IMG/VR virus record: IMGVR_UViG_3300036820_000014
Span: 1 to 64,000 of that record
DNA length: 64,000 nucleotides
Strand: one strand, 5' to 3'
From: a virus
A model generated the notes under the pieces. The model did no database searches and was not told the DNA's origin. It saw nothing but the letters and a program-made list of their open reading frames with translations. Positions within the stretch are counted from its first letter, which is position 1; each line of letters starts with the position of its first letter. The position numbers and the translations under genes were made by a program. Below, in pieces: positions 1-54,194 of this stretch.

Positions 1-161
1 AGCCCGCTCAACGGCTGAGCACCTAACGAATCCAACGTGCTCCCCCACACCGCATCGCACAAGTCTCGAAGGTTTAACCCTATACGCGAGTCGACCCCGG
101 CGGCGGACCGGGATCGTAAGGCCGACTCGCACTCATCCGAAGGGGGAACCTTCGATCGCGA

Positions 162-3771: not shown

Positions 3772-3962
3772 GGGGCCGAGCGTACCGAATGTGTCCAGTG
3801 CTTGTAGAACTCATCGTTGAGGATCCGTTCGATCACGCCATCGGCGCTGGGCTCATCACGACAGCGGACTAGCCGGTAATACACGGGGAGACTGACGCCA
3901 CGTAGGGCCAGCTTCAGCCTGAGTTCGTCATCGGCCAGATCACGCCACTCATCTCGGAGCAC
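3768..3962 (-). CDS. Hypothetical helical protein
   Basis: 64 residues from GTG 3962, or 74 from ATG 3989. The sequence DEWRDLADDELRLKLALRG is amphipathic helix; two further short helices follow. It overlaps the stop of the upstream gene by 14 nt and ends in a GTGA overlap with the next gene. No family is recognised. Confidence 0.5.
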   Translation of the reverse strand: MLRDEWRDLADDELRLKLALRGVSLPVYYRLVRCRDEPSADGVIERILNDEFYKHWTHSVRSAP

Positions 3963-4293
3963 GGAAATGCTCGGCGAGGCCGAAACCATTGCCAGCGTTA
4001 TGGGTGAGATTCGTACGGTCCACCGCTGCCACGGCTTTCCGTCGATCCCCGCCTCGGAGCAACGTCCGCCACTCGTCGACGGCGGCGGCACCGCGACCAG
4101 TCGCGGCACTCAGGGCCTCGGAGCGAGCCATGCTGGCCTGATCCCTGGGCACGCCACCCTTCGACCTCGCACCTCGAACCCGGACGTCAGGTCGCCAGCG
4201 CTTTGGACGTTCGACCGGTGCCGATGTGTCCGGCGTGTCGAGGACCGGGAGCGGAGTGCCGAAGTCGTCATCGTCCAGCTCGAACTCGTCCAT
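3949..4293 (-). CDS. Hypothetical protein downstream of large terminase
   Basis: 114 residues: an acidic N-terminus (MDEFELDDDDFG), a proline/basic middle and a helical C-terminal half. It begins 39 nt after the terminase stop. The short gap holds CTAGAAACTTGAAACTAG, a repeat of GAAACT flanked by CTAG, of unknown role. No Shine-Dalgarno is obvious. Function unknown. Confidence 0.5.
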   Translation of the reverse strand: MDEFELDDDDFGTPLPVLDTPDTSAPVERPKRWRPDVRVRGARSKGGVPRDQASMARSEALSAATGRGAAAVDEWRTLLRGGDRRKAVAAVDRTNLTHNAGNGFGLAEHFRAPR

Positions 4294-4332
4294 ACCGACA
4301 ACCTAGTTTCAAGTTTCTAGTTACTCGTCCCC

Positions 4333-5952
4333 CTAGCCGACGCTGCCAGCTCGGATCTCCCGCTGGGCTGCTCCGGAGCCACGGGCACGCCGGACACGGT
4401 GGATCCGTGACAAGGCCTGTGAGCAGGCGTCCACCATGTCATCGTGGGTCCCCTGGTTGAACGCCGACATCTCCTCAAGGAAAACCGGCACCCAGGGCGC
4501 CCAGCCTGGCAGGTGGACATCGCCCGCTTGGATGTAGCCGGATACCGCGACTAGTCGCGTGAACTTGTCGCCCTTGACGGGCACCGAGATGATGCCGGCG
4601 AGGCCCCTGCGTCGGACCAGATTGACCGAGTGGCGCTCGGGCTTGGTCATCCCAAGCTCGCCAGCCACATCGTCTGAGATTTCGTAGCCGGGCGCCGGCG
4701 TCCGGAGCGACTCCATGACCTCGGGCCCGTAACCGGCCGCCTCCACGAGGTGGAGCCGACAGGCCGGGTATCGGACGACTACGAGCGCCATGGCGTTTGT
4801 GGTGAGCGCCTGGGGCCACTGACCGCGTAGCTGGTCGATCAGCCAGCAGTCCTTGCCGGTGACGCCCCACACCTGGCCGACCGTATAGTCACCCGACTCC
4901 TTGTCCTTCAGCTTCATGTCCCACGAGCTCACGACACGATCGAAGGTGGTGGGCCAGAACGAGTCCTCTACCACCCACCAGTCCCGCTTGATGAGAAGGC
5001 CCTCTGGCGGACTTGGGCGCTGCTGCTCAAGCGCGGAGGCGAGGTACTCGCCCAGGGCTGCCGCTCGAGCCAACACCTCCTCCCGGTTGAAACGTTCGGG
5101 CTCGAGCAACTCGCCGGGTCGACGGCCTAGCGGGTCCGGCAGGCGCAGGATGGGGTCGACGGCGAGCGGGTCCGGAGCCTCGGCGATAGCTGGGAGGCGG
5201 ACGACGGTCCACTTGTCGGCGTGCTCGATCTCGGACGACTGACGGAGCCGGGCTTGGAAATCGTTCTCGTGCCACCTGGTGCCGGCTGAGATCTTCGGGG
5301 CATCGAAGCGCTGCAGACGGAGGCGGCACTGGGAGCGGTAGACATTCCATACTGACTCTCGCTGAGCCGCTGAGTGCGCCGCCTGCCAGCCTTTGATCAG
5401 GTCGTCCAGGAGTAGGACGTCTTGAGGAAAGCCGGTGATGGCTCCGCCGATGCCGACGCAATAGAGCCCGCCGCCCTCCGACGTCGTCCACTTCCCTCGA
5501 GCTCGCTGGTCGGGGCGAAGGCGGAATCGCAGCTTCGAGGCGTACCTCTCGGCGATGTCTCGGGCCTTGCCTCCCTCGTCGACCGCCTTGTCCGCGTCGT
5601 ACGAGACGTACATGATCCGTGTCTTCGGGCTCCGATCGAGGATCCACAGTGCGCCCCACATGATGAGCGTGGTTTTCCCGAGCTGAGATGGCAACCACCA
5701 TTCCTGGTTCGGGTCCTCGCCATTTACGGACTCGGCGAACTTGCGACCGAGCAGCTTGATGTAGGGCCAGAGCTTGTACTCGCCATCGGTCAGGTGGTGA
5801 GCGAAGGTGGCCGGGTTGGCTCGCCAGGGTGTGTCGTCTTCGAGCGCCTTGTCGACCGCTTTTCGTTCAGCCGGCGTGAGCTTCTGGAGAATCCGGGCGC
5901 GCTTCGGAGACGGGAGATCGATCAGCCATTCGACATCGATCGCCTGGGTCAC
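4333..5952 (-). CDS. terL: Terminase large subunit
   Basis: 539 residues from the GTG that overlaps the upstream stop (GTGA). It is the ATP-driven motor and nuclease that cuts and packages phage DNA through the portal. The N-terminal ATPase has a variant Walker A (LPSQLGKTT, about residues 87-95) and Walker B (DVLLLDD, about 180). The C-terminal RNase H-like nuclease shows the first acidic strand VSSWDMKLKD (about 345) and a late acidic motif around DDMVDAC (about 515). An upstream ATG at 6024 exists but would overlap the previous gene by 76 nt. The putative small subunit lies about 6.6 kb upstream, an unusually long separation. Confidence 0.92.
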   Translation of the reverse strand: MTQAIDVEWLIDLPSPKRARILQKLTPAERKAVDKALEDDTPWRANPATFAHHLTDGEYKLWPYIKLLGRKFAESVNGEDPNQEWWLPSQLGKTTLIMWGALWILDRSPKTRIMYVSYDADKAVDEGGKARDIAERYASKLRFRLRPDQRARGKWTTSEGGGLYCVGIGGAITGFPQDVLLLDDLIKGWQAAHSAAQRESVWNVYRSQCRLRLQRFDAPKISAGTRWHENDFQARLRQSSEIEHADKWTVVRLPAIAEAPDPLAVDPILRLPDPLGRRPGELLEPERFNREEVLARAAALGEYLASALEQQRPSPPEGLLIKRDWWVVEDSFWPTTFDRVVSSWDMKLKDKESGDYTVGQVWGVTGKDCWLIDQLRGQWPQALTTNAMALVVVRYPACRLHLVEAAGYGPEVMESLRTPAPGYEISDDVAGELGMTKPERHSVNLVRRRGLAGIISVPVKGDKFTRLVAVSGYIQAGDVHLPGWAPWVPVFLEEMSAFNQGTHDDMVDACSQALSRIHRVRRARGSGAAQREIRAGSVG

Positions 5953-10237: not shown

Positions 10238-10533
10238 CGTTTGCCATTGCCGGCCGTGGCCGTCTTCATCCGCTCCAGCTCGTCAGCCGCCACCTGAACA
10301 GCACGGGCAACCTCGGGACGTTCGAGCGCCCGTTCGAGCTCAGCCATAGAAGGCCTGCGCGTACAGAGCGTCTCGTCGGCCCAGAAGAAGACCGAGAGCA
10401 GCCCACACAGAGGACACACCATGACGTCGCCGTCGTCTGGCAAGGAGCCCTTGTCGGTCTGGCCTTCGAGGCCCGTGTTGACCACCCAGCAATGAGCACA
10501 GTGGACCTGGAGCGGTTCGGCGCTAGCTGTCAC
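10234..10533 (-). CDS. Zinc-ribbon protein
   Basis: 99 residues with CAHC (about 12-15) and CPLCG (about 41-45), a single zinc ribbon, followed by a helix-rich half (MAELERALERPEVARAVQVA). Both ends overlap neighbours (GTGA in, ATGA out). It could be an adaptor or anti-host factor; nothing in the sequence decides. Confidence 0.6.
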   Translation of the reverse strand: MTASAEPLQVHCAHCWVVNTGLEGQTDKGSLPDDGDVMVCPLCGLLSVFFWADETLCTRRPSMAELERALERPEVARAVQVAADELERMKTATAGNGKR

Positions 10534-10739
10534 GGCAGAGCCGACGCCTCACGGCGCACCAGTGCGTCAGAGACACCCGAGGCCCTTGATATGGCCATCC
10601 AGGACTCGCCGGCGTCGTGAGCCTGAGCCCAGAGCCGTCTCCGCCTCTCGATCAACTGGTGACGTTCGGACATCACTTCAGCCAGGCTCAGTTGGAGCCT
10701 GACGAGTTCGTTGAGGACCTGAGCGGCCGGTGGTGTCAC
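10530..10739 (-). CDS. Small helix-turn-helix protein
   Basis: 69 residues: a charged helix (LSLAEVMSERHQLIERRRRL) then a HTH (AGESWMAISRASGVSDALVRREA) like sigma-region-4 or Xre-type small regulators. A similar architecture occurs in the gene at 19312..19548, so the two may be paralogues. GTGA overlaps on both sides. Confidence 0.6.
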   Translation of the reverse strand: MTPPAAQVLNELVRLQLSLAEVMSERHQLIERRRRLWAQAHDAGESWMAISRASGVSDALVRREASALP

Positions 10740-11149
10740 GCGCTGGGCAACTCGGTGAGATCCACGAACCAGCCGCAGCGAGGGAATGCCAGAACGCCGA
10801 TCATGGAGTCCTGGTGGAGCACCTCGCCGTCAGTGGTCACCACCACGGCCTGGGACCAGATGGCTGGCACCGAGTCATCAGCATCGAGCATGTTCACGTT
10901 GTCGATCGCTAGCCGCACAGTGTCGAGAGGAGCGCCCAGCCGGCGGAGTTGCCGAGCGAAGGCCACCTCCCTGACTTCGTCCATTGAGAACCCTCGCTGG
11001 GTACCTGTTCCGTCCGCCTGTCGAACCGGGCGAATGGTACCCACGCGGATCCAGTAATCCAACTCTCGGTAGGTGCACCCGACGAGTAGGCACACATCGG
11101 TCGATGACAGAAGCTCTTCGATGGTTGGGGTCGCGCTCACAAGATCCAC
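10736..11149 (-). CDS. MerR-type helix-turn-helix regulator
   Basis: 137 residues. STDVCLLVGCTYRELDYWIRVGTIRP is a MerR-like winged HTH with the RxLDYW recognition pattern, followed by FSMDEVREVAFARQLRRLGAP. The C-terminal half is a compact beta-rich domain instead of the usual coiled coil. No Shine-Dalgarno lies at the GTG start, and only about 30 nt separate it from the upstream gene. Confidence 0.72.
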   Translation of the reverse strand: MDLVSATPTIEELLSSTDVCLLVGCTYRELDYWIRVGTIRPVRQADGTGTQRGFSMDEVREVAFARQLRRLGAPLDTVRLAIDNVNMLDADDSVPAIWSQAVVVTTDGEVLHQDSMIGVLAFPRCGWFVDLTELPSA

Positions 11150-12333: not shown

Positions 12334-12596
12334 GATGCAAGCTCTGGGTTCTCCTCGATCGGGGCCTCTCGATCGAGGTAGTCGTGAGCGATCGACCAGG
12401 CGTTCTGTGGATCCTCGCCGCAAAGCTCCAAAACCTGTTCGGCCTCCTCGATCCGGGCGATGAGGCCCCGGACGTAGTGGACCCGGATGTAGATGTCGGT
12501 CTTCCGGGTGGAACGTCCCCTGGCGAAGCCCGAGAGCCTCTGCTTGACCTGGGCCAGCTGCTCGTCTGAGATCGGACTGGCAGGGAACCTAGGCAT
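12324..12596 (-). CDS. Hypothetical helical protein
   Basis: 90 residues, mostly helical (EEQLAQVKQRLSG-type start, then HYVRGLIARIEEAEQVLELC). It overlaps the stop of the putative small terminase by 8 nt. The frame is open further upstream, but the ATG at 12596 is the natural start. Function unknown. Confidence 0.55.
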   Translation of the reverse strand: MPRFPASPISDEQLAQVKQRLSGFARGRSTRKTDIYIRVHYVRGLIARIEEAEQVLELCGEDPQNAWSIAHDYLDREAPIEENPELASWD

Positions 12597-13242
12597 CTGA
12601 GCTGGCCGCTGGTAGGACACGGAGCGTGGGCGGTTCGGCAGCGTCTCGGGCGATCTGACGCTCACGCTTGAGACGCTCGAGCTTGGCGTTCAGCTCGCCA
12701 ACGGTGATCTGTTCCACGGTGACGTCGCCGGTGAAGGTGACCTGTGGGGCCTGCTTGTAGAAGTCCTGGACCTTGGCGTACTGGTCGAATAGCCAGCGGA
12801 GGTGGCCCATCGCCTGGTCCGCTCGTTCGGCTCGCTCGGCTCGTTCCTCCGGCGTGGCGTTTCGAGCCTTGCCGGTAGTGGAGTCGATGACCTCGGTCTC
12901 TGAGCGGGTGGACGGGTCCCACCACCTGAGGATCTGGCGCTCGAGGCGGGCGAGGTGAAGCTGACGGGCCTCCTCTGTGGCCTTGGCCGTTCGCTGCATC
13001 TCGTCGACGAACTGGGCCTTGACCGTGTTCGGCTTCTTGCCAAGGCGTCGGCCCACCTCGGCGTAGGTGGCGCCGGCGAGGACGAGTGCGACGATCTGGC
13101 GGCGCTGGTCCAAGCGTCGGGCCTTGGCCTCCATGGAGAGCCGGGCACGGCGCTGCTTGTACGTCTCGGTCCGCGCGGTCGCCTGTGTGGTTCCTCGAAC
13201 GACTGGCGCGTTGCCGTGGGCGGAGGGCTCAGTCGTCGACAT
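12589..13242 (-). CDS. terS: Putative terminase small subunit (HTH DNA-binding)
   Basis: 217 residues. The N-terminal HTH (GATYAEVGRRLGKKPNTVKA, about 55-75) would bind DNA; a coiled helical middle (HLARLERQILRWW and following) suits oligomerisation; the C-terminus contains FDQYAKVQDFYKQAPQVTF. This layout fits small terminase subunits, though a general DNA-binding protein is not excluded. It lies about 6.6 kb upstream of the large subunit with many accessory genes between. ATG 13242 overlaps the upstream stop by 14 nt. Confidence 0.6.
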   Translation of the reverse strand: MSTTEPSAHGNAPVVRGTTQATARTETYKQRRARLSMEAKARRLDQRRQIVALVLAGATYAEVGRRLGKKPNTVKAQFVDEMQRTAKATEEARQLHLARLERQILRWWDPSTRSETEVIDSTTGKARNATPEERAERAERADQAMGHLRWLFDQYAKVQDFYKQAPQVTFTGDVTVEQITVGELNAKLERLKRERQIARDAAEPPTLRVLPAASSDA

Positions 13243-13519
13243 GCTCATAGGTTGCCTCAAACACGTCGGGCTTGCACGGGTACAACTCGTCCTTCACGCC
13301 ACGGATGATCCAGTCGTTTTCAACGGCCAGCATGTCGCCTTCGGGTGTCGGGATCACCAGGCCCAGACGGGCACTCCCATCGGGATACACCCACTCGCCA
13401 TGAGGCTGCGTCTCGTAATCCGTGCCCGCGCCGACGAACGCGCACATCTCCGACCAGTTATCCCATCGGAGCTGAAGCGCTTCGATGACGATCGGCTTCT
13501 TGCGGTAGCGGTCAGCCAC
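13229..13519 (-). CDS. Hypothetical phage protein, YRKKPxVIEA family (copy 1)
   Basis: 96 residues beginning MADRYRKKPIVIEALQL and ending WIIRGVKDELYPCKPDVFEATYE, the signature of a very common small phage protein of unknown function. A second copy is at 16463..16774. It is coupled to the upstream 29-residue membrane peptide by an 8-nt overlap. Confidence 0.7.
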   Translation of the reverse strand: MADRYRKKPIVIEALQLRWDNWSEMCAFVGAGTDYETQPHGEWVYPDGSARLGLVIPTPEGDMLAVENDWIIRGVKDELYPCKPDVFEATYEHVDD

Positions 13520-18926: not shown

Positions 18927-19315
18927 CGTTCCTCGACACGTTCATCCTGGGAGTTCTTATGAACGATCCGGCTCTTCCACAGCACCTTCGACGGTGCCCA
19001 GATACGCCACGAGTTCTGGCCCTCGGCGAGAAGCCAGACACCTCGCCATCGAGAGTGGGTGCTGGTGCCTACGCGAAGACCGAAGAGCACCCGACGGATT
19101 CGAGTATGCCAGCCGGTCGGGTCGGTCGACCTCTGAGGCGAGAGCACCCAGGCATTGAATGAGGCACCACACGCGGCGCATAGCTCGAACTCATCCCACT
19201 CATCGGGGGGCAGCACTCCCCACCATCCCTGAGGCATCTCGAAGGTGTTGCCGCGGAGACGCCCGCCAGCGTCAGCCACGGTGCGACATCGCCGACACTC
19301 GATTTTGCCTCTCAC
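18923..19315 (-). CDS. Zinc-ribbon protein
   Basis: 130 residues beginning at a GTG in a GTGA overlap. CRRC (about 8) and CAACGASFNAW (about 48) form a zinc site. The second half is basic and Trp-rich. Function unknown. Confidence 0.58.
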   Translation of the reverse strand: MRGKIECRRCRTVADAGGRLRGNTFEMPQGWWGVLPPDEWDEFELCAACGASFNAWVLSPQRSTDPTGWHTRIRRVLFGLRVGTSTHSRWRGVWLLAEGQNSWRIWAPSKVLWKSRIVHKNSQDERVEER

Positions 19316-19548
19316 GTCGCCGGCTCCCGGTTGCGAGCTGAGAGCTTGAGCGCCGCCGGTGTCACGCCGGCAACCCTGGCGATGCGGGACCAAGAAAGGC
19401 CGAGCTCCCTGAGCCGATCGACGATCCGGATTCGAGCATCGACGGCATCGCGCCGCTCATCGACGGCGAGCGAGAGCCGGGCTCCGACCGCGACCAGGTC
19501 CGCCAAGAGTTCCGGGATCTCGTCGTCGCCAGCCTTGACATGGGCCAT
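19312..19548 (-). CDS. Small helix-turn-helix protein
   Basis: 78 residues: a helix-rich start (IPELLADLVAVGARLSLAV) then a HTH (LSWSRIARVAGVTPAALKLSARN). Same architecture as 10530..10739. About 35 nt separate it from the upstream methyltransferase gene. Perhaps a local regulator. Confidence 0.6.
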   Translation of the reverse strand: MAHVKAGDDEIPELLADLVAVGARLSLAVDERRDAVDARIRIVDRLRELGLSWSRIARVAGVTPAALKLSARNREPAT

Positions 19549-21434: not shown

Positions 21435-21460
21435 CTTGGGTTGGATGTTGCGCAACCAAG
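21435..21460 (-). promoter_or_regulatory. Leader hairpin with CAACCCAA motif
   Basis: The leader contains CTTGGTTG and CAACCCAAG, which can pair across 9 nt with one bulge just upstream of the Shine-Dalgarno. The TCCAACCCAA string also appears in leaders near 34808, 36345, 52894 and 56236. The 17-bp dyad itself is absent here. Confidence 0.4.
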
Positions 21461-24216: not shown

Positions 24217-24234
24217 ACTATAGCCACGCTTTAG
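24217..24234 (-). promoter_or_regulatory. Operator-like dyad, site E, with -10-like TATAGT
   Basis: The plus strand reads CTATAG-CCACG-CTTTAG (24218..24234), matching CTAWAR-N5-YTWTAG. Read on the minus strand, TATAGT (24222..24217) would be the -10 box. It is the weakest of five sites because no -35 is seen and the start codon is only about 16 nt away. Confidence 0.45.
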
Positions 24235-34161: not shown

Positions 34162-34793
34162 TTGCGGGTCTCCTTTTCCAGCTCGTAGCTGAACCTGTCC
34201 TCGGCCGGTTTGAAGAAGGTCACGCCAGGAACGGGCACCGGCTCGGCTCCCTCCTCGGCTGGCGGCAAGAGGACAGGGACGGCTTTCCCTTTCTCGCCGC
34301 CCTCGGTGGCCTCAGCGGCCATCTTGTCGGCCACTCGTGGCAGCTTCCCAAGCGCCTGGCGGTTGACATCGACGTTCACCCGTACCAACTCGTCATGGCC
34401 CGAAGTCAGCGCCCAGGCCTTGAACGCGTCCTCATCGGCCACAACGACCCGGCCGGGGAGTGCCTTCATCCGGACGGTGCCGTGAGGCAGCGACAGGGTC
34501 TTCACCTTGGCTTGCTTCATCTCAGGGCGGGCATAGGCCTCGACGATCGCTTCGATCCGTCTGAGTTGCGCCTCGGCCGCTTTGGTGCGGTCGGCCAGCC
34601 AGCCGTCCAGACGCTCACGTTCGGCGTCGTAGACGACCTTGACATCTCGGAGATCGGCCTGGAGCCGCATGCCCTTTCGGAGCAGCCAGTCCAGCTGCTC
34701 TCGGCTATTGGGCGGTGGGACATCCTCGCCCTCGGGAAGCGGATCCCCGATGAATTCATCGAGGTCGCGCTCCCAGAAACCAGAGTCGCTCAC
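34158..34793 (-). CDS. Gam/Gp157-like host-nuclease inhibitor
   Basis: 211 residues from a GTG behind AAGGAGG. The helical start (SDSGFWERDLDEFI) and then a long helix ending RRIEAIVEAYARPEM precede a small beta domain (AKVKTLSLPHGTVRMKALPG, then AFKAWAL). This resembles siphovirus Gp157 and Gam-like proteins that protect DNA ends from host nucleases. The C-terminal Pro-rich tail is not family-like. It is the first gene after operator B and is followed by the RecT-like gene. Confidence 0.7.
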   Translation of the reverse strand: MSDSGFWERDLDEFIGDPLPEGEDVPPPNSREQLDWLLRKGMRLQADLRDVKVVYDAERERLDGWLADRTKAAEAQLRRIEAIVEAYARPEMKQAKVKTLSLPHGTVRMKALPGRVVVADEDAFKAWALTSGHDELVRVNVDVNRQALGKLPRVADKMAAEATEGGEKGKAVPVLLPPAEEGAEPVPVPGVTFFKPAEDRFSYELEKETRK

Positions 34794-34822: not shown

Positions 34823-34839
34823 CTAAAACGGAACTATAG
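34823..34839 (-). promoter_or_regulatory. Operator-like dyad, site B, with -10-like TATAGT
   Basis: Plus strand CTAAAA-CGGAA-CTATAG. On the minus strand TATAGT (34838..34833) is a good -10; the leader then reads TAACTCCAACCCA and AAGGAGG before the GTG at 34793. No clear -35 is visible. It heads the Gam-RecT-exonuclease operon. Confidence 0.65.
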
Positions 34840-34870: not shown

Positions 34871-34898
34871 GAAGGCGGAGCACTGAGGCCCCGCCTTC
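34871..34898. terminator. 8-bp stem hairpin upstream of site B
   Basis: GAAGGCGG and CCGCCTTC pair over a 12-nt loop, between the end of the early gene cluster (stop at 34955) and operator B. There is no T tract on either side. It could end the upstream transcript or insulate the two operons. Confidence 0.38.
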
Positions 34899-34954
34899 TC
34901 GCCCGCACTGAATCTCCAACCCAAAATTGGGAACCAGTGGCGAAGTGGTGAAAG

Positions 34955-36357: not shown

Positions 36358-36396
36358 CTAAAATCCGATTATAGCGGAGGCCATTGGAACAGCCAA
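36358..36396 (-). promoter_or_regulatory. Operator-like dyad, site A, with full promoter
   Basis: The dyad is CTAAAA-TCCGA-TTATAG (36358..36374). On the minus strand it holds the -10 TATAAT (36373..36368). A matching -35 TTGGCT lies at 36396..36391, 17 nt upstream. The leader continues TAACTCCAACCCAAAGGGAGG to the ATG. This is the best promoter in the window and is positioned to be switched off by a protein bound to the dyad. Confidence 0.75.
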
Positions 36397-49979: not shown

Positions 49980-50287
49980 GCAATGATGTCTCCAAGGACC
50001 GCTGCGTCGATGATCGGAGACCCGGGGCCAGTGCGTTGACAGAACTCCGCGAACCGCGCGTACTCCTCCTTGTCCATGGCTTTACGGAAAAACTCCAACC
50101 ACGAGTCGGTGTCTTGAGACACGGCGGACCCGGTAACGCGAAGCGTCGTGAATTGAGGCACCCGATGGGGATAGACAACGAACTGCTCGGACAGCGACGT
50201 CCCTTCATCGTCTTGGTAAGCGAGCTTGAACGTCTCGCTCTGTTCTTCCTTCGCCCTGTGGGCGATTTCGAATTGCTTCACTGGCAC
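49898..50287 (-). CDS. Tail assembly chaperone, first frame
   Basis: 129 residues from GTG 50287, 10 nt after AAAAGGAG. FKLAYQDDEGTSLSEQFVVY and DSWLEFFRKAMDKEEYARF are typical of G-type chaperones. Ends with a basic tail after GDIIAWVTEVD. Frameshift candidates in the overlap or just before it are CCCCGGG (plus coordinates 50021..50027) and ACGAAAACT (49907..49915). I could not identify the true slippery site. Confidence 0.8.
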   Translation of the reverse strand: MPVKQFEIAHRAKEEQSETFKLAYQDDEGTSLSEQFVVYPHRVPQFTTLRVTGSAVSQDTDSWLEFFRKAMDKEEYARFAEFCQRTGPGSPIIDAAVLGDIIAWVTEVDTGRPTTPSSPSRRGRTKTGL

Positions 50288-50309
50288 TTGGGGGTTGCTC
50301 CTTTTCTCG

Positions 50310-50777
50310 TCAGACTCCGCCGCCGGATTCGAGGCACACGGCCTGCATGGCTCTAGTGACGAAGTCGTTCTTTTTGGGGGGTGGGTGTGACTTGACGTAC
50401 TTGCGAAAAACGGGAGCGCCGTCCTTGAACCACCGCAGGACGCCATCGGGATCTTTGGGCTCGATCGGGTACGGTCCGCCGGACGGAGCGACCAGTAGCC
50501 CGAGCGCGGAAACGTCCGAGCTCGATCCGCCGCCGCGTGTGAGCGTCGATCCGATCAGGATCATGGGTGTCTCACCGAAGATCAGTCGGCGCTCCATGGT
50601 GTCGCGCAGGTGCTTGCTGGTTCGTGGCTGGCCGTCGTCGCCCGCCTCTTTGCCAACAGGGCAGTCGGCGATTGCCACCGCCAGGATCCGGTCGGCGAAC
50701 TGGCGCCATTGCGGGCTCTGGGATACGGCGGAGTTCAGAACTGGCTGACCGTACGAGACATAACGAGCGCCCGTCAC
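50310..50777 (-). CDS. HK97 Gp10-like neck protein
   Basis: 155 residues from a GTG overlapping the upstream stop. RQFADRILAVAIADCPVG... (about 28-45), SKHLRDTMERRL (about 54-65) and a beta-hairpin (FGETPMILIGSTLT) fit the Gp10 family of siphophage head-tail connectors. A late loop with DPDGVLRWFKDGAPVF and KSHPPPKKNDFV is also characteristic. It acts at the tail-terminator/neck interface. Confidence 0.8.
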   Translation of the reverse strand: MTGARYVSYGQPVLNSAVSQSPQWRQFADRILAVAIADCPVGKEAGDDGQPRTSKHLRDTMERRLIFGETPMILIGSTLTRGGGSSSDVSALGLLVAPSGGPYPIEPKDPDGVLRWFKDGAPVFRKYVKSHPPPKKNDFVTRAMQAVCLESGGGV

Positions 50778-50977
50778 TTGTTGCCACAGCACATCTGGGT
50801 GAGCACCTCAGGAGGCGCCTCGCCTCGGTTGCCGGTCTCTGAGATGAGGCCAGCTGCAAGCCATCCTTCAAGGCGCGCGTCGTTCTCGTCGACGTCGGCC
50901 CAGCGACCGGCGGTCAGCCGACCTACGCCGCAATTGGCGAAGACTCGCCTCTTTCCCGCTTCGAGTCGCCCGGCCAT
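50774..50977 (-). CDS. Small neck-region protein
   Basis: 67 residues. RLTAGRWADVDENDARLEGW (about 20-39) resembles short proteins that accompany connectors in actinophages. Starts at an ATG next to the dyad at 50978..51001. Ends in GTGA overlap with the Gp10-like gene. Confidence 0.5.
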   Translation of the reverse strand: MAGRLEAGKRRVFANCGVGRLTAGRWADVDENDARLEGWLAAGLISETGNRGEAPPEVLTQMCCGNK

Positions 50978-51001
50978 TCATGAATGGTTCACGATTCATG
51001 A
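50978..51001. promoter_or_regulatory. TCATGAAT-N8-ATTCATGA dyad
   Basis: Two perfect 8-bp inverted half-sites flank GGTTCACG. It touches the ATG of the minus gene at 50977 and lies about 70 nt upstream of the plus-strand HTH gene, so it is a candidate operator controlling both directions. Unrelated in sequence to the CTAWAR sites. Confidence 0.55.
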
Positions 51002-51068
51002 CCCATTAGATAGCCCTATGGCGACTAGGTAATGCGCCAGAGTTTCAGGGCGATTAGAAACGGCACCC

Positions 51069-51554
51069 ATGGAAGAGGACCGTCTGACCTACTGGACGCG
51101 ATACCCAGACCTAGAAACAGGACCGCTCTGGGTGGGATTGCACCTGCACCGCAGAGCTGGCGCAACTGTGCTCGTCGGGCTCGAAACCTGGACCGAGGCA
51201 CCCGGACGGGCCAGACGCTCGCTCGGTCCGGAAGCACCTGACAACGATGAGCTCCAGCTCTGGCCACCTCGGCCGTTGCATCTGGCGGATCTGCGCCGGC
51301 TGAGGTTCCGGGAGTTGCTCGACCAGCTATTCGCTGCGCTCCGAGATCGGGACCTCGCCGTGAACTGGCGGCCAGCTCGGCCAGGACGGCCAAAGGTCTA
51401 CGACGATGCCCACTACGAGCGAGTCGCTGGTATTTACCTCAGGGCGAGGGCCAGCAAGAGCCCGCCTGTACAGGCCGTACAGGCGACCTGGAACGTCTCA
51501 CGGGGCACAGCGGCCGGTTGGGTGGCCAAGGCTCGAGCCGCCGGTTGGTTGTGA
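51069..51554 (+). CDS. Plus-strand HTH regulator
   Basis: 161 residues. The N-terminal part is unusual (TYWTRYPDLETGPLWVGL and beta-like sequence). The C-terminal HTH VYDDAHYERVAGIYLRARAS then QATWNVSRGTAAGWVAKARA is typical of small actinobacterial regulators. The only plus gene within the tail region; the dyad at 50978 lies in its promoter region. The far end meets the virion gene at 51689 head-on. Confidence 0.68.
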   Translation: MEEDRLTYWTRYPDLETGPLWVGLHLHRRAGATVLVGLETWTEAPGRARRSLGPEAPDNDELQLWPPRPLHLADLRRLRFRELLDQLFAALRDRDLAVNWRPARPGRPKVYDDAHYERVAGIYLRARASKSPPVQAVQATWNVSRGTAAGWVAKARAAGWL

Positions 51555-51671
51555 CCCCACACGCGCAGCGACTCCGAGCCTGGGACCGGATCACCATGCT
51601 GGGCATCGGTCCTTCATCAGCTCGGGGCCACGGACTCCAGCCAATGGAAGAGACGGGAGGCTGCGCCGTTA

Positions 51672-51693
51672 GGTAAGAGTGAGGACTCTTACC
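51672..51693. terminator. Bidirectional hairpin terminator candidate
   Basis: GGTAAGAGT-GAGG-ACTCTTACC: a perfect 9-bp stem with a 4-nt loop between the convergent plus HTH gene and the minus virion gene, overlapping the stop of the latter. T tracts are weak, but the stem is strong. Confidence 0.6.
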
Positions 51694-52060
51694 CGGTGAC
51701 GCTCATCGTCAGCTCGGCGGCTTCCCCCGCGCTGACCGTGACCTCTACCGAACCGGACTCGCCGAAAGGCTGACCGGAAGGGTCATCAACCGCAGAGCCG
51801 TCCGAGTTGATGAGAGGAACCGGAGCGAGGTTCGCTGTGCCCTCGGCAACCATCGTGAGAGGCGCCGACCACAGGCCAGGCGTGGCTCCAGCTACGGCAT
51901 CGCCTACGGTCAGAGCCGCCGGATTGTCCGAGGTCGCGGAGGGTGCGATCGGGAAACCTGTAACCGAGTCGTTCGGCCCGGCGGTGTCGTCCAGGTGGTC
52001 ATCGGTGAATTGGAAAACGGCTGCGCCATCGGTGGTGTCGACGGTAAAACTTGTTCCCAT
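51689..52060 (-). CDS. Putative virion protein with beta-rich fold
   Basis: 123 residues from an ATG behind AAGGAGCCC. GTSFTVDTTDGAAVFQFTDD..., then Ala/Gly/Val-rich strands (GSVEVTVSAGEAAELTM), suggestive of an immunoglobulin-like or tail-tube/decoration fold. The same frame is open to a GTG at 52222, adding 54 residues with IELHVHFHWPEQPLQVQV; the interval 52061..52276 otherwise holds only small ambiguous frames. It precedes the neck genes. Confidence 0.55.
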   Translation of the reverse strand: MGTSFTVDTTDGAAVFQFTDDHLDDTAGPNDSVTGFPIAPSATSDNPAALTVGDAVAGATPGLWSAPLTMVAEGTANLAPVPLINSDGSAVDDPSGQPFGESGSVEVTVSAGEAAELTMSVTG

Positions 52061-52276
52061 TTTGGGCTCCTTAGTGACGGTCATGGCGAGCCACGATGCT
52101 CTCCGGGGATTCGGTACGACCTGGACCTGAAGCGGTTGCTCAGGCCAGTGGAAGTGGACGTGTAGCTCGATCGACGTCGGCGCCAGAGCGTCGACTGCGG
52201 GAACCTCGTCGTCTGCGTCCACCGCGGCGCACGATAGCGCGGGAAGTCGGTCATCGCTCAGCTCGGTGGTTGGTGG

Positions 52277-52552
52277 TCATCCTCCAGCCACATGGAGCCC
52301 AGTCGCTTCACGGAGTAGCTGGTGGGCCATCGCTGTGGCCATCTCCAAAGGGAAGGGGAAGATCTGGCTACCTGTCGAGTGCTCGATCCTGAGCGCTACG
52401 GCCGGCACGGCCTTCCCCTGGTCGTCTTGACCCATGACCCGTTCCACGCCGAACGCCATGGGTAGCCCAAGCATGACGTTCATGAAGGGTTCGAGGGTGG
52501 TTCTTTGTGTCCCGTCAGGATCGTGTCCGTTGTCCGCTGCCATCGTCGGCAA
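52277..52552 (-). CDS. Hypothetical small protein (IEHSTGSQ type)
   Basis: 91 residues. VPAVALRIEHSTGSQIFPFP and LEMATAMAHQLLREATGL resemble a small actinophage family of unknown function. Two ATG starts are possible (52552, 52543). It lies downstream of the terminator at 52662 and opens the tail gene block. Confidence 0.55.
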   Translation of the reverse strand: MPTMAADNGHDPDGTQRTTLEPFMNVMLGLPMAFGVERVMGQDDQGKAVPAVALRIEHSTGSQIFPFPLEMATAMAHQLLREATGLHVAGG

Positions 52553-52574
52553 CCTAGTACCGAGACGCGAAGGG

Positions 52575-52599
52575 AGCCAGGGTCGGACGAACCCTGGCT
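52575..52599. terminator. Hairpin AGCCAGGGT/ACCCTGGCT
   Basis: A 9-bp perfect stem with a 7-nt loop. A GGGAG/CTCCC extension outside it continues the pairing with a bulge. It lies 23 nt upstream of the gene at 52552. No T tract; perhaps a processing or leader hairpin, or a second terminator. Confidence 0.4.
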
Positions 52600-52661
52600 C
52601 TCCCTCCGAGGACGGCGTGAACGTCCGGCTCGCACGCTATCGAATGCGGCCCTCAAATAAC

Positions 52662-52700
52662 CGAGGCCCCGGGGTGGGGGGAACCCGACCCGGGGCCTCG
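52662..52700 (-). terminator. Rho-independent terminator
   Basis: A 13/14-nt GC-rich inverted repeat (CGAGGCCCCGGGT) pairs with one bulged base across a 12-nt loop. On the minus strand it is followed by GTTATTT. It directly follows the 51-residue gene, so that gene forms its own short transcription unit. Confidence 0.75.
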
Positions 52701-52728
52701 ACGGCGGTGCAGATACATCAGCTAGCGG

Positions 52729-52884
52729 TTACCGCCTGCCGATGAGCAGGTCCGCAGCCGCCTCTTCGATGAGCCACGAGGCGACGCCTCCCACGGGTTC
52801 CCTCACAGCCCCCGTAGCGGTCACCTCGTACCCGCACCCATCGAGCACTTCGAGCGTCTGGTTGTGCTTCCAATTCTGTGGCAT
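52729..52884 (-). CDS. 51-residue protein in its own operator-controlled unit
   Basis: Starts MPQNWKHNQTLEVLDGCGYE with GGAGGAACC before the ATG; ends SWLIEEAAADLLIGRR. The composition is ordinary and the fold probably alpha/beta. It lies between operator C and a strong terminator and so is expressed alone under repressor control, like a lysogeny-related or immunity gene. No family recognised. Confidence 0.62.
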   Translation of the reverse strand: MPQNWKHNQTLEVLDGCGYEVTATGAVREPVGGVASWLIEEAAADLLIGRR

Positions 52885-52916
52885 TTGGTTCCTCCGTTTG
52901 GGTTGGTGCCCACAGT

Positions 52917-52943
52917 CTATAACTCTGTTTTAGCGGATGCCAA
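52917..52943 (-). promoter_or_regulatory. Operator-like dyad, site C, with promoter
   Basis: Dyad CTATAA-CTCTG-TTTTAG (52917..52933). On the minus strand, -10 TATAGA (52921..52916) is spaced 16 nt from -35 TTGGCA (52943..52938). The leader continues GCACCAACCCAAACGGAGGAACC to the ATG at 52884. Confidence 0.7.
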
Positions 52944-52953
52944 TCGAGTCCCC

Positions 52954-53118
52954 TCAGGCGCTCGCCGCCAGTTTCCAGAACCTCCTGTCGAGGCAGACCC
53001 GGCAGGTCCGGTCAGTTACGGATTCGCTCACCTGGTGCTCCCAGACGAAGATGCCGCACTCAGTCACGACCGGGCGACCTGATCGGAGGTCGGCATCGTT
53101 GACCAGGTGGAGCATCAT
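52954..53118 (-). CDS. 54-residue zinc-binding protein
   Basis: VNDADLRSGRPVVTECGIFVW and VTDRTCRVCLDRRFWKL, with CxxC and an upstream Cys, form a probable zinc site. The pattern RPVVTECG-x-n-C-x-x-C is familiar from small actinophage proteins. Starts ATGATG in an overlap with the upstream stop. Confidence 0.58.
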   Translation of the reverse strand: MMLHLVNDADLRSGRPVVTECGIFVWEHQVSESVTDRTCRVCLDRRFWKLAASA

Positions 53119-53279
53119 GGGAGCGATCTCAGTGCCCGGTGAGAGAAAGGGTCAGGCACAAGACGCCATCCGGAGGGAGGCGCCATCTTGAGGTCCCAGA
53201 ACCGCGACCAGTCGAACGGCCATCCTCCTCTTTCCCAATAGCCCAGCCACCCATCCTCGAAGCACCCGAAAGGACTCAT
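53115..53279 (-). CDS. 54-residue Trp-rich protein
   Basis: Begins MSPFGCFEDGWLGYWERGGW; aromatic and Gly/Pro-rich. Starts in an ATGA overlap and ends in an ATGATG overlap. No family recognised. Confidence 0.45.
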   Translation of the reverse strand: MSPFGCFEDGWLGYWERGGWPFDWSRFWDLKMAPPSGWRLVPDPFSHRALRSLP

Positions 53280-53653
53280 TGGCGCTCCAGCCGCCTCAGA
53301 TCCTCAAGACTTACAGCCGCCGCATGGGCCAGCTCACGTGCCCGATCAGCGGTAAAGGCGTAATCGTTCAGTTGGCTCACTTCCCAGGCCACGTCGACTC
53401 TCGCCCCACAGGGATGTGTGAACCTCGCTATGACGGGGTGAGCACGGTCATTGAGGCGCACAATCACGGTTGGATCGGGTGCTGGCACGTCCCCACCGCA
53501 CCCTCGACACTCCGAGAACGGAGAGCCGAGGACGACCAGCCAACGGCGGCGGATGCCTGTCATCGGATCCAGGCCGGAATGGACAGCCGCCGATAGAGCG
53601 GGGTCGATTTCTTGCACCGCCTCGGTGACCTCGGCGTACTGCATGGGTCTCAC
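53276..53653 (-). CDS. Zinc-binding hypothetical protein
   Basis: 125 residues from a GTG overlapping the upstream stop. CRGCGGDVPAPDPTVIV (about 48) and a later FTHPCGARVDVAW give a Cys/His metal site; a C-terminal helix (DRARELAHAAAVSLEDLRRL) follows. Function unknown. Confidence 0.55.
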   Translation of the reverse strand: MRPMQYAEVTEAVQEIDPALSAAVHSGLDPMTGIRRRWLVVLGSPFSECRGCGGDVPAPDPTVIVRLNDRAHPVIARFTHPCGARVDVAWEVSQLNDYAFTADRARELAHAAAVSLEDLRRLERQ

Positions 53654-54036
53654 GATGCCCGGGCCCTGAGTTCGGCGGTCGGACCGAGGAAGACATCCTC
53701 CGGCTCGATGAACCCGTCTGCCGTCTTGAGCGGCCGGCACGACACACAATCCGTGCCTCGGTGCCAGACTCCTCGCTCCCGAATGACGAGCTGACCACCG
53801 CAATTCTGGCAATAGAAGACCCGAGGATTGGTGGGCTTGGCGGCACAATCCCCGCAGCACTTGACCGTTTGCCAGACGCCGCCGAAAGCCGGAGCGCCCG
53901 TATCGAGGTAACGATTCCCGATAGCGATGGTCCCCCGGCACTCACCGCACCGGTGCTCCTTCTTGCGGGCGGTCCGCCAGACCACCCGCTTGCCATGCAC
54001 CGATCGCCAGAAGCCTTCGACGGTCAGCGTGCTCAC
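53650..54036 (-). CDS. Double zinc-ribbon protein
   Basis: 128 residues from a GTG overlapping the upstream stop. Two Cys sets: HRCGECRGTIAIG with CCGDCAAK (about 30 and 61), and FYCQNCGGQL with DCVSCRPLK (about 75 and 96). Probable zinc ribbons in tandem; a nucleic-acid-binding role is possible. Confidence 0.65.
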   Translation of the reverse strand: MSTLTVEGFWRSVHGKRVVWRTARKKEHRCGECRGTIAIGNRYLDTGAPAFGGVWQTVKCCGDCAAKPTNPRVFYCQNCGGQLVIRERGVWHRGTDCVSCRPLKTADGFIEPEDVFLGPTAELRARAS

Positions 54037-54194
54037 TGGTGGCACCTACACCCGCCGTCCGAACAGTTCTCGGCGACCCGGTTGCAACCATCCTCGTCTT
54101 GGCGAGGACAGCCGCACCCGACGCACAGGTGGTTGCCGTAGCCGCCGAGTGGCGACTTGCTTTCGAGGTCGGGCTTCGTCTCCGGAAGGTTCAT
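54033..54194 (-). CDS. 53-residue Cys-rich protein
   Basis: The ATG overlaps the helicase stop. CVGCGCPRQDEDGCNRVAEN and CSDGGCRCHQ hold eight Cys and several acidic residues, consistent with a metal cluster or zinc site. GTGA overlap with the next gene. Confidence 0.55.
   Translation of the reverse strand: MNLPETKPDLESKSPLGGYGNHLCVGCGCPRQDEDGCNRVAENCSDGGCRCHQ

Follow-up and report, generated by a model that had tools for sequence, protein, structure and literature searches.

A 51-codon orphan gene as a probable member of a small operator-linked group of non-structural genes in an unclassified phage

A 51-codon orphan gene of an unclassified phage probably belongs to a small regulon of non-structural genes, the promoters of which would overlap one common operator. 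The gene lies in a window of 64,000 nucleotides that covers most of the full virus record (78,258 bases); the record ends in a 127-base exact repeat (1-127 = 78132-78258) and thus closes as an apparent circle of 78,131 bp that is probably complete. Its minus strand carries 85 of the 93 ORFs picked by coding statistics, among them a non-structural block running from 56280 to 52662, which is opened by a dyad at 56264 and in which the 51-codon gene, preceded by a second dyad at 52917, comes last in order with a hairpin (52700-52662) behind it. This reading would give an unclassified phage a concrete regulon and would add an independent second example of the promoter-dyad and start-site-element layout known from cluster K; the orphan genes under dyad promoters would become sensible candidates for host-takeover functions.

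The 51-codon gene and its immediate surroundings

The elements at the locus, in the direction of the minus strand, are as follows.

52938..52943 (-): -35-like hexamer TTGGCA, from a sequence scan
52917..52933 (-): 17-bp dyad CTAAAAC-AGA-GTTATAG (CTAAAACAGAGTTATAG), operator candidate, from a pattern search
52921-52916 (-): -10-like TATAGA, within the 3' arm of the dyad
52919-52914 (-): TAGACT, the -10 of the initial annotation, with an 18-bp spacer
52897..52908 (-): leader element CACCAACCCAAA, one mismatch to the shared 12-mer, from alignment
52891..52895 (-): Shine-Dalgarno GGAGG, read from the sequence
52729..52884 (-): 51-codon orphan gene with ATG start, from the ORF list and coding score
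52662..52700 (-): GC-rich hairpin, terminator candidate, with a perfect 12-bp stem and a moderate T tail
52572..52602 (-): second hairpin, ahead of the next gene, from a hairpin scan

With a codon score for which 25 minus-strand ORFs, each 300 codons or longer, served as training set, the 51-codon ORF (52884-52729) obtained 0.276 bits per codon. Among 123 spurious ORFs inside long genes, 42-60 codons in length, none attained this value (maximum, 0.259), and the gene called by the initial annotation is probably real. That annotation had recognised no relative of the protein, and none emerged here: no homologue was found in PHROGs, Pfam, NCBIfam, PADLOC or PDB sequences, nor in phage records, plasmid records, IMG/VR or GTDB genomes, the last two scans requiring exact short peptide matches and hence detecting close relatives only. 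A comparison with 23 related records, run without a positive control, likewise gave no match above chance level. Matches to phrog_30309 (E 0.27), PDB 3fd0 (E 0.89) and plasmid sequences (E of at least 1) were set aside as chance level, and a single-sequence AlphaFold2 model (mean pLDDT 56, pTM 0.24) was too poor for fold comparison. As a tentative guess from its context, somewhat more doubtful than not, the small product might be an accessory protein that is made early and acts on the host.

Upstream of the gene, promoter-like hexamers overlap the dyad (6 of its 7 arm positions pair) on the minus strand, in keeping with the -35/-10 promoter inside a dyad operator originally annotated, and GGAGG at 52895-52891 bears out the good Shine-Dalgarno. 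Two -10 registers tie at 9/12 (TTGGCA-16-TATAGA and TTGGCA-18-TAGACT). Between 50000 and 56000 the TAGACT register is the sole promoter-like match, which is about the chance number given a shuffled mean of 0.7. One such match per 6 kb being expected by chance, and the protein having no homologue, consensus-like parts might simply have assembled around a spurious ORF; the coding score and the recurrence of dyad and leader documented below oppose this, and we consider such an assembly scarcely credible.

Downstream, the hairpin at 52700-52662 has a 15-nt loop and a folding energy of -34.5 kcal/mol, and is one of only two perfect hairpins in the genome with arms of 12 bp or more and a loop of 3-20; 5 of 20 shuffled genomes contained any hairpin of this kind. 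What had been described as a 13-bp terminator with a T-rich tail therefore stands as a hairpin with a strong and perfect 12-bp stem, but the T content of its tail (GGTTATTTGAGG) is only moderate, with 5 T among the 7 bases following GG (GGTTATTTG). The combined promoter and terminator scan, with its loop limit of 8, did not list this hairpin, and it was also missed by a hairpin scan allowing loops up to 12, which returned 12 hairpins where 4 shuffles gave 6-13 and thus shows no enrichment of hairpins in general. Nothing terminator-like was seen from the stop of the upstream gene (52954) to the 52917 promoter, and read-through from upstream is therefore expected. The proposal of a self-contained unit thus holds for the promoter-like site of its own and for the hairpin that follows, but not for separation from upstream. 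From its own promoter the gene would receive additional transcription, or transcription with a different timing, and the hairpin would terminate the whole block.

Recurrence of the dyad and leader before other genes

Allowing at most one mismatch, the dyad pattern CTAWAAY-NNN-RTTWTAG occurs at four places in the 78,258 bases (34823, 36358, 52917 and 56264), and a search of the whole record with CTAWAAYNNNRTTWTAG gave zero mismatches at 36358, 52917 and 56264, one at 34823 and two at 24218. The sites beyond the 51-codon locus, together with a leader-like element, are listed here.

56264..56280 (-): exact dyad, leader 56248-56237; opens the block with a 169-aa gene and a UvrD-like helicase
36358..36374 (-): exact dyad, leader 36354-36343; precedes an orphan 112-aa gene
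34823..34839 (-): dyad with one mismatch, leader 34819-34808; precedes the Mu-Gam-like gene starting at 34790
24218..24234 (-): weaker dyad with two mismatches and without leader, 17 nt ahead of an orphan 73-aa gene (24201-23980)
21435..21446 (-): leader-like element with two mismatches and without dyad, directly ahead of a gene start

All four good dyads lie on the minus strand no more than 70 nt from a start, and behind each comes a leader that departs from CTCCAACCCAAA at 0-2 positions, then a Shine-Dalgarno, then the start codon. Whereas the genome holds three exact dyads, 300 dinucleotide-preserving shuffles yielded none; in 60 further shuffles no site with zero or one mismatch appeared and sites with two averaged 0.13 per shuffle, although these figures overstate the surprise somewhat because the consensus was derived from the same small set of four sites. 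A plainer pattern with three mismatches allowed gave 10 sites versus 5.8 expected, so only the well-matched sites are meaningful. Because the dyad recurs, it is beyond chance, and because it recurs before other genes of the record, the operator label it had been given holds.

Promoter similarity coincides with these dyads to differing degrees. A scan of both strands of the whole genome for TTGACA-16..18-TATAAT (-10 at least 5/6, total at least 9) passed only two places. At 36358, TTGGCT-17-TATAAT matches the sigma70 consensus at 10/12, the sole such score on either strand; sites 34823 and 56264 share the -10 TATAGT and lack a good -35. Overall, the -10 is clear at three of the four dyad sites and the -35 at two. 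Sites 34823 and 36358 have the -10 in the first arm, sites 52917 and 56264 in the second, an 11-bp shift that approximates one helical turn and would fit a symmetric site bound by a dimer on one face.

Wherever they can be identified, the genes downstream of the dyads are non-structural. Gene 34790-34158 is Mu-Gam-like (Pfam 1.2e-15, PHROG 6.6e-17); its longest ORF begins further upstream, crossing the dyad, and we took GTG 34790 as the start because leader and Shine-Dalgarno precede it and ORF 35326-34955 occupies the upstream part. A Cys-containing 169-aa gene (56219-55710) lies ahead of the UvrD-like helicase; neither it (scanned with six extra N-terminal residues, an ATG lying that far upstream), the 112-aa gene (36330-35992) nor the 51-aa gene matched any family above cut-off, and no relatives of the other dyad-leader genes were found.

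Taken as a regulon, the account we favour, its members would each possess a sigma70-like promoter with the -10 region overlapping the 17-bp symmetric site. Binding of this dyad by a dimeric regulator that the phage encodes, most likely a repressor, would cover the -10 and switch all these promoters off or on together, and the short mRNA leader would contribute another common element, beside the Shine-Dalgarno. Alternatively, the dyad may belong to the promoter itself, as a sequence favoured by an RNA polymerase that the phage has modified or by a phage sigma factor, marking a timed middle-promoter class. The arms do contain TATAAT, TATAGT or TATAGA, the dyads mark only non-structural genes where these are identifiable, and the product of 12589-13260 shows a sub-threshold Sigma70_r4_2 match (20 bits against a cut-off of 25.7), although it scores higher with other HTH models. 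The occurrence of the -10 in different arms at different sites is unexpected for a directional polymerase site, however, and no sigma-factor model exceeded its cut-off among the 30 selected proteins scanned, which leaves this alternative unlikely.

Candidate regulators and control at the RNA level

The operator reading calls for a DNA-binding regulator, and HTH-bearing candidates comprise a MerR-like gene (10736-11149), two HTH-like genes (12589-13260 and 19312-19548) and a ParB-like gene; no result links 10736-11149, 19312-19548 or 12589-13260 to the dyad. Lysogeny had been suggested as one role for the 51-codon gene, and an immunity or lysogeny function might be read from a small gene under an operator with a separate hairpin in a genome that encodes a ParB-like protein. 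Against this, tyrosine integrase (PF00589), serine recombinase (PF00239) and ParA-type ATPase (PF13614) models gave no match in the record, little of which should be missing as it closes on itself, and HTH_3 matches all fell below cut-off, the better one inside the ParB-like gene, leaving no CI-type HTH above that threshold. A lysogeny role is thus weakly supported at best, and we think it very unlikely that the gene serves immunity or lysogeny.

Regulation might instead act mainly on RNA, the leader CTCCAACCCAAA beside the Shine-Dalgarno being the working element to which a protein or an RNA binds, a role suggested for the SAS elements discussed below, and the dyad being secondary. All four dyad sites carry the leader, which also occurs at one place lacking a dyad. 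An exact copy of the 12-mer occurs on the opposite strand (34914..34925, +) in the gap that precedes the Mu-Gam-like gene; shuffled genomes contain a mean of 0.007 copies of this 12-mer, both strands counted. This antisense 12-mer pairs over 10 bp with the leader of the Mu-Gam-like gene in a 181-nt read-through RNA (energy z -3.4), and the mean duplex energy of the antisense with the four cassettes lies below that of each of the 300 shuffled antisense sequences. When the read-through segment at 34823 is shorter, however, the full helix cannot form and Shine-Dalgarno pairing does not rise; the shorter segments of the four sites show no common change in Shine-Dalgarno pairing, and since the four leaders share no fold that sequesters the Shine-Dalgarno, a leader hairpin of this kind is not supported as the common mechanism. 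Moreover, duplex energy places the 51-codon gene only about 11th among 90 entries (some duplicates), with unrelated starts above it. RNA-level control as the main principle accordingly seems distinctly improbable to us. A combined scheme, in which the operator would set transcription of the regulon while an antisense RNA from the Mu-Gam-like gap would pair with all leaders, that of the 51-codon gene included, and co-set translation, appears highly speculative and very improbable. Behind the antisense 12-mer in the minus-strand direction, an 11-bp hairpin was observed at 34871-34898.

Comparison with known phage elements and related records

Multi-promoter phage repressors act through a symmetric operator that overlaps the -10 of several promoters. 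The symmetric site described here similarly overlaps the -10 of several promoters; unlike those systems, the present genome yielded no identified repressor, integrase or divergent immunity region. A search for L5 stoperators gave only five sites with two mismatches and plays no part in the present reading.

The closest parallel in layout is provided by the ESAS and SAS elements of cluster K mycobacteriophages. There, an inverted-repeat promoter is followed by a start-site element in non-structural regions, both are repeated in one orientation, and each also occurs alone; the ESAS inverted repeats are imperfect, 15-17 bp long with a spacer of 4-14 bp, and surround a SigA-like promoter, while the SAS has a 13-bp consensus a few bases from start codons (Pope 2011, PMC3203893; Adephagia 2024, PMC11373665; Yasnaya_Polyana 2025, PMC12699233). 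One such element in phage Adephagia precedes a small toxic gene, gp91, which is HicA-like, and the role of the layout is there still called unclear (PMC11373665). As in that system, the present phage combines an inverted-repeat promoter with a short element beside the start codon, its leader precedes the four dyad genes and one gene without a dyad, all on the minus strand, and leader and dyad each also occur without the other; the additional exact leader copy on the plus strand has no gene behind it. Unlike the ESAS, the arms here are 7 bp with a 3-bp spacer, copies are fewer and the sequence is unrelated (the SAS consensus has zero matches with up to two mismatches on both strands of the 78,131 bases), and no match found places this phage in cluster K. 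By this comparison, the arrangement is analogous to ESAS/SAS rather than a member of it.

Beyond this parallel, Rfam gave no match, and no description of the dyad or leader motif was found in the literature covered (titles and abstracts, and open-licence full texts). Megablast of 50000-60000 against 50,697 phage records returned no match. The terminase is about 28-33% identical to those of 20 listed records, the top-ranked of which are Microbacterium and Arthrobacter phages; relatives of the helicase were found at 21 loci (best identity, 53%), which held no exact dyad and no match to the 51-aa protein beyond chance level. Of the 23 records located by way of relatives of the helicase or the terminase, only two had a dyad with at most one mismatch, at one site each, and none was exact. 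Over IMG/VR, the combined leader and dyad pattern hit three loci, all of 33-34% GC and judged to be chance; two of the three are identical around the match, which is not ahead of a comparable start.

An 18-kb contig (L006) represents a near-identical strain: across the portal and at the ends of the record identity is 100% and 99.7%, and it falls to about 94.7% at window positions 3817-4989; the contig does not extend as far as the dyad sites. When the compared loci were searched for repeated 17-bp dyads of their own, no comparable set was found, the exceptions being GC-rich repeats in several loci and GATATAC-type dyads in one (L020), where three closely spaced GATATAC..GTATATC dyads at 10323-10408 are perhaps operators of another phage.
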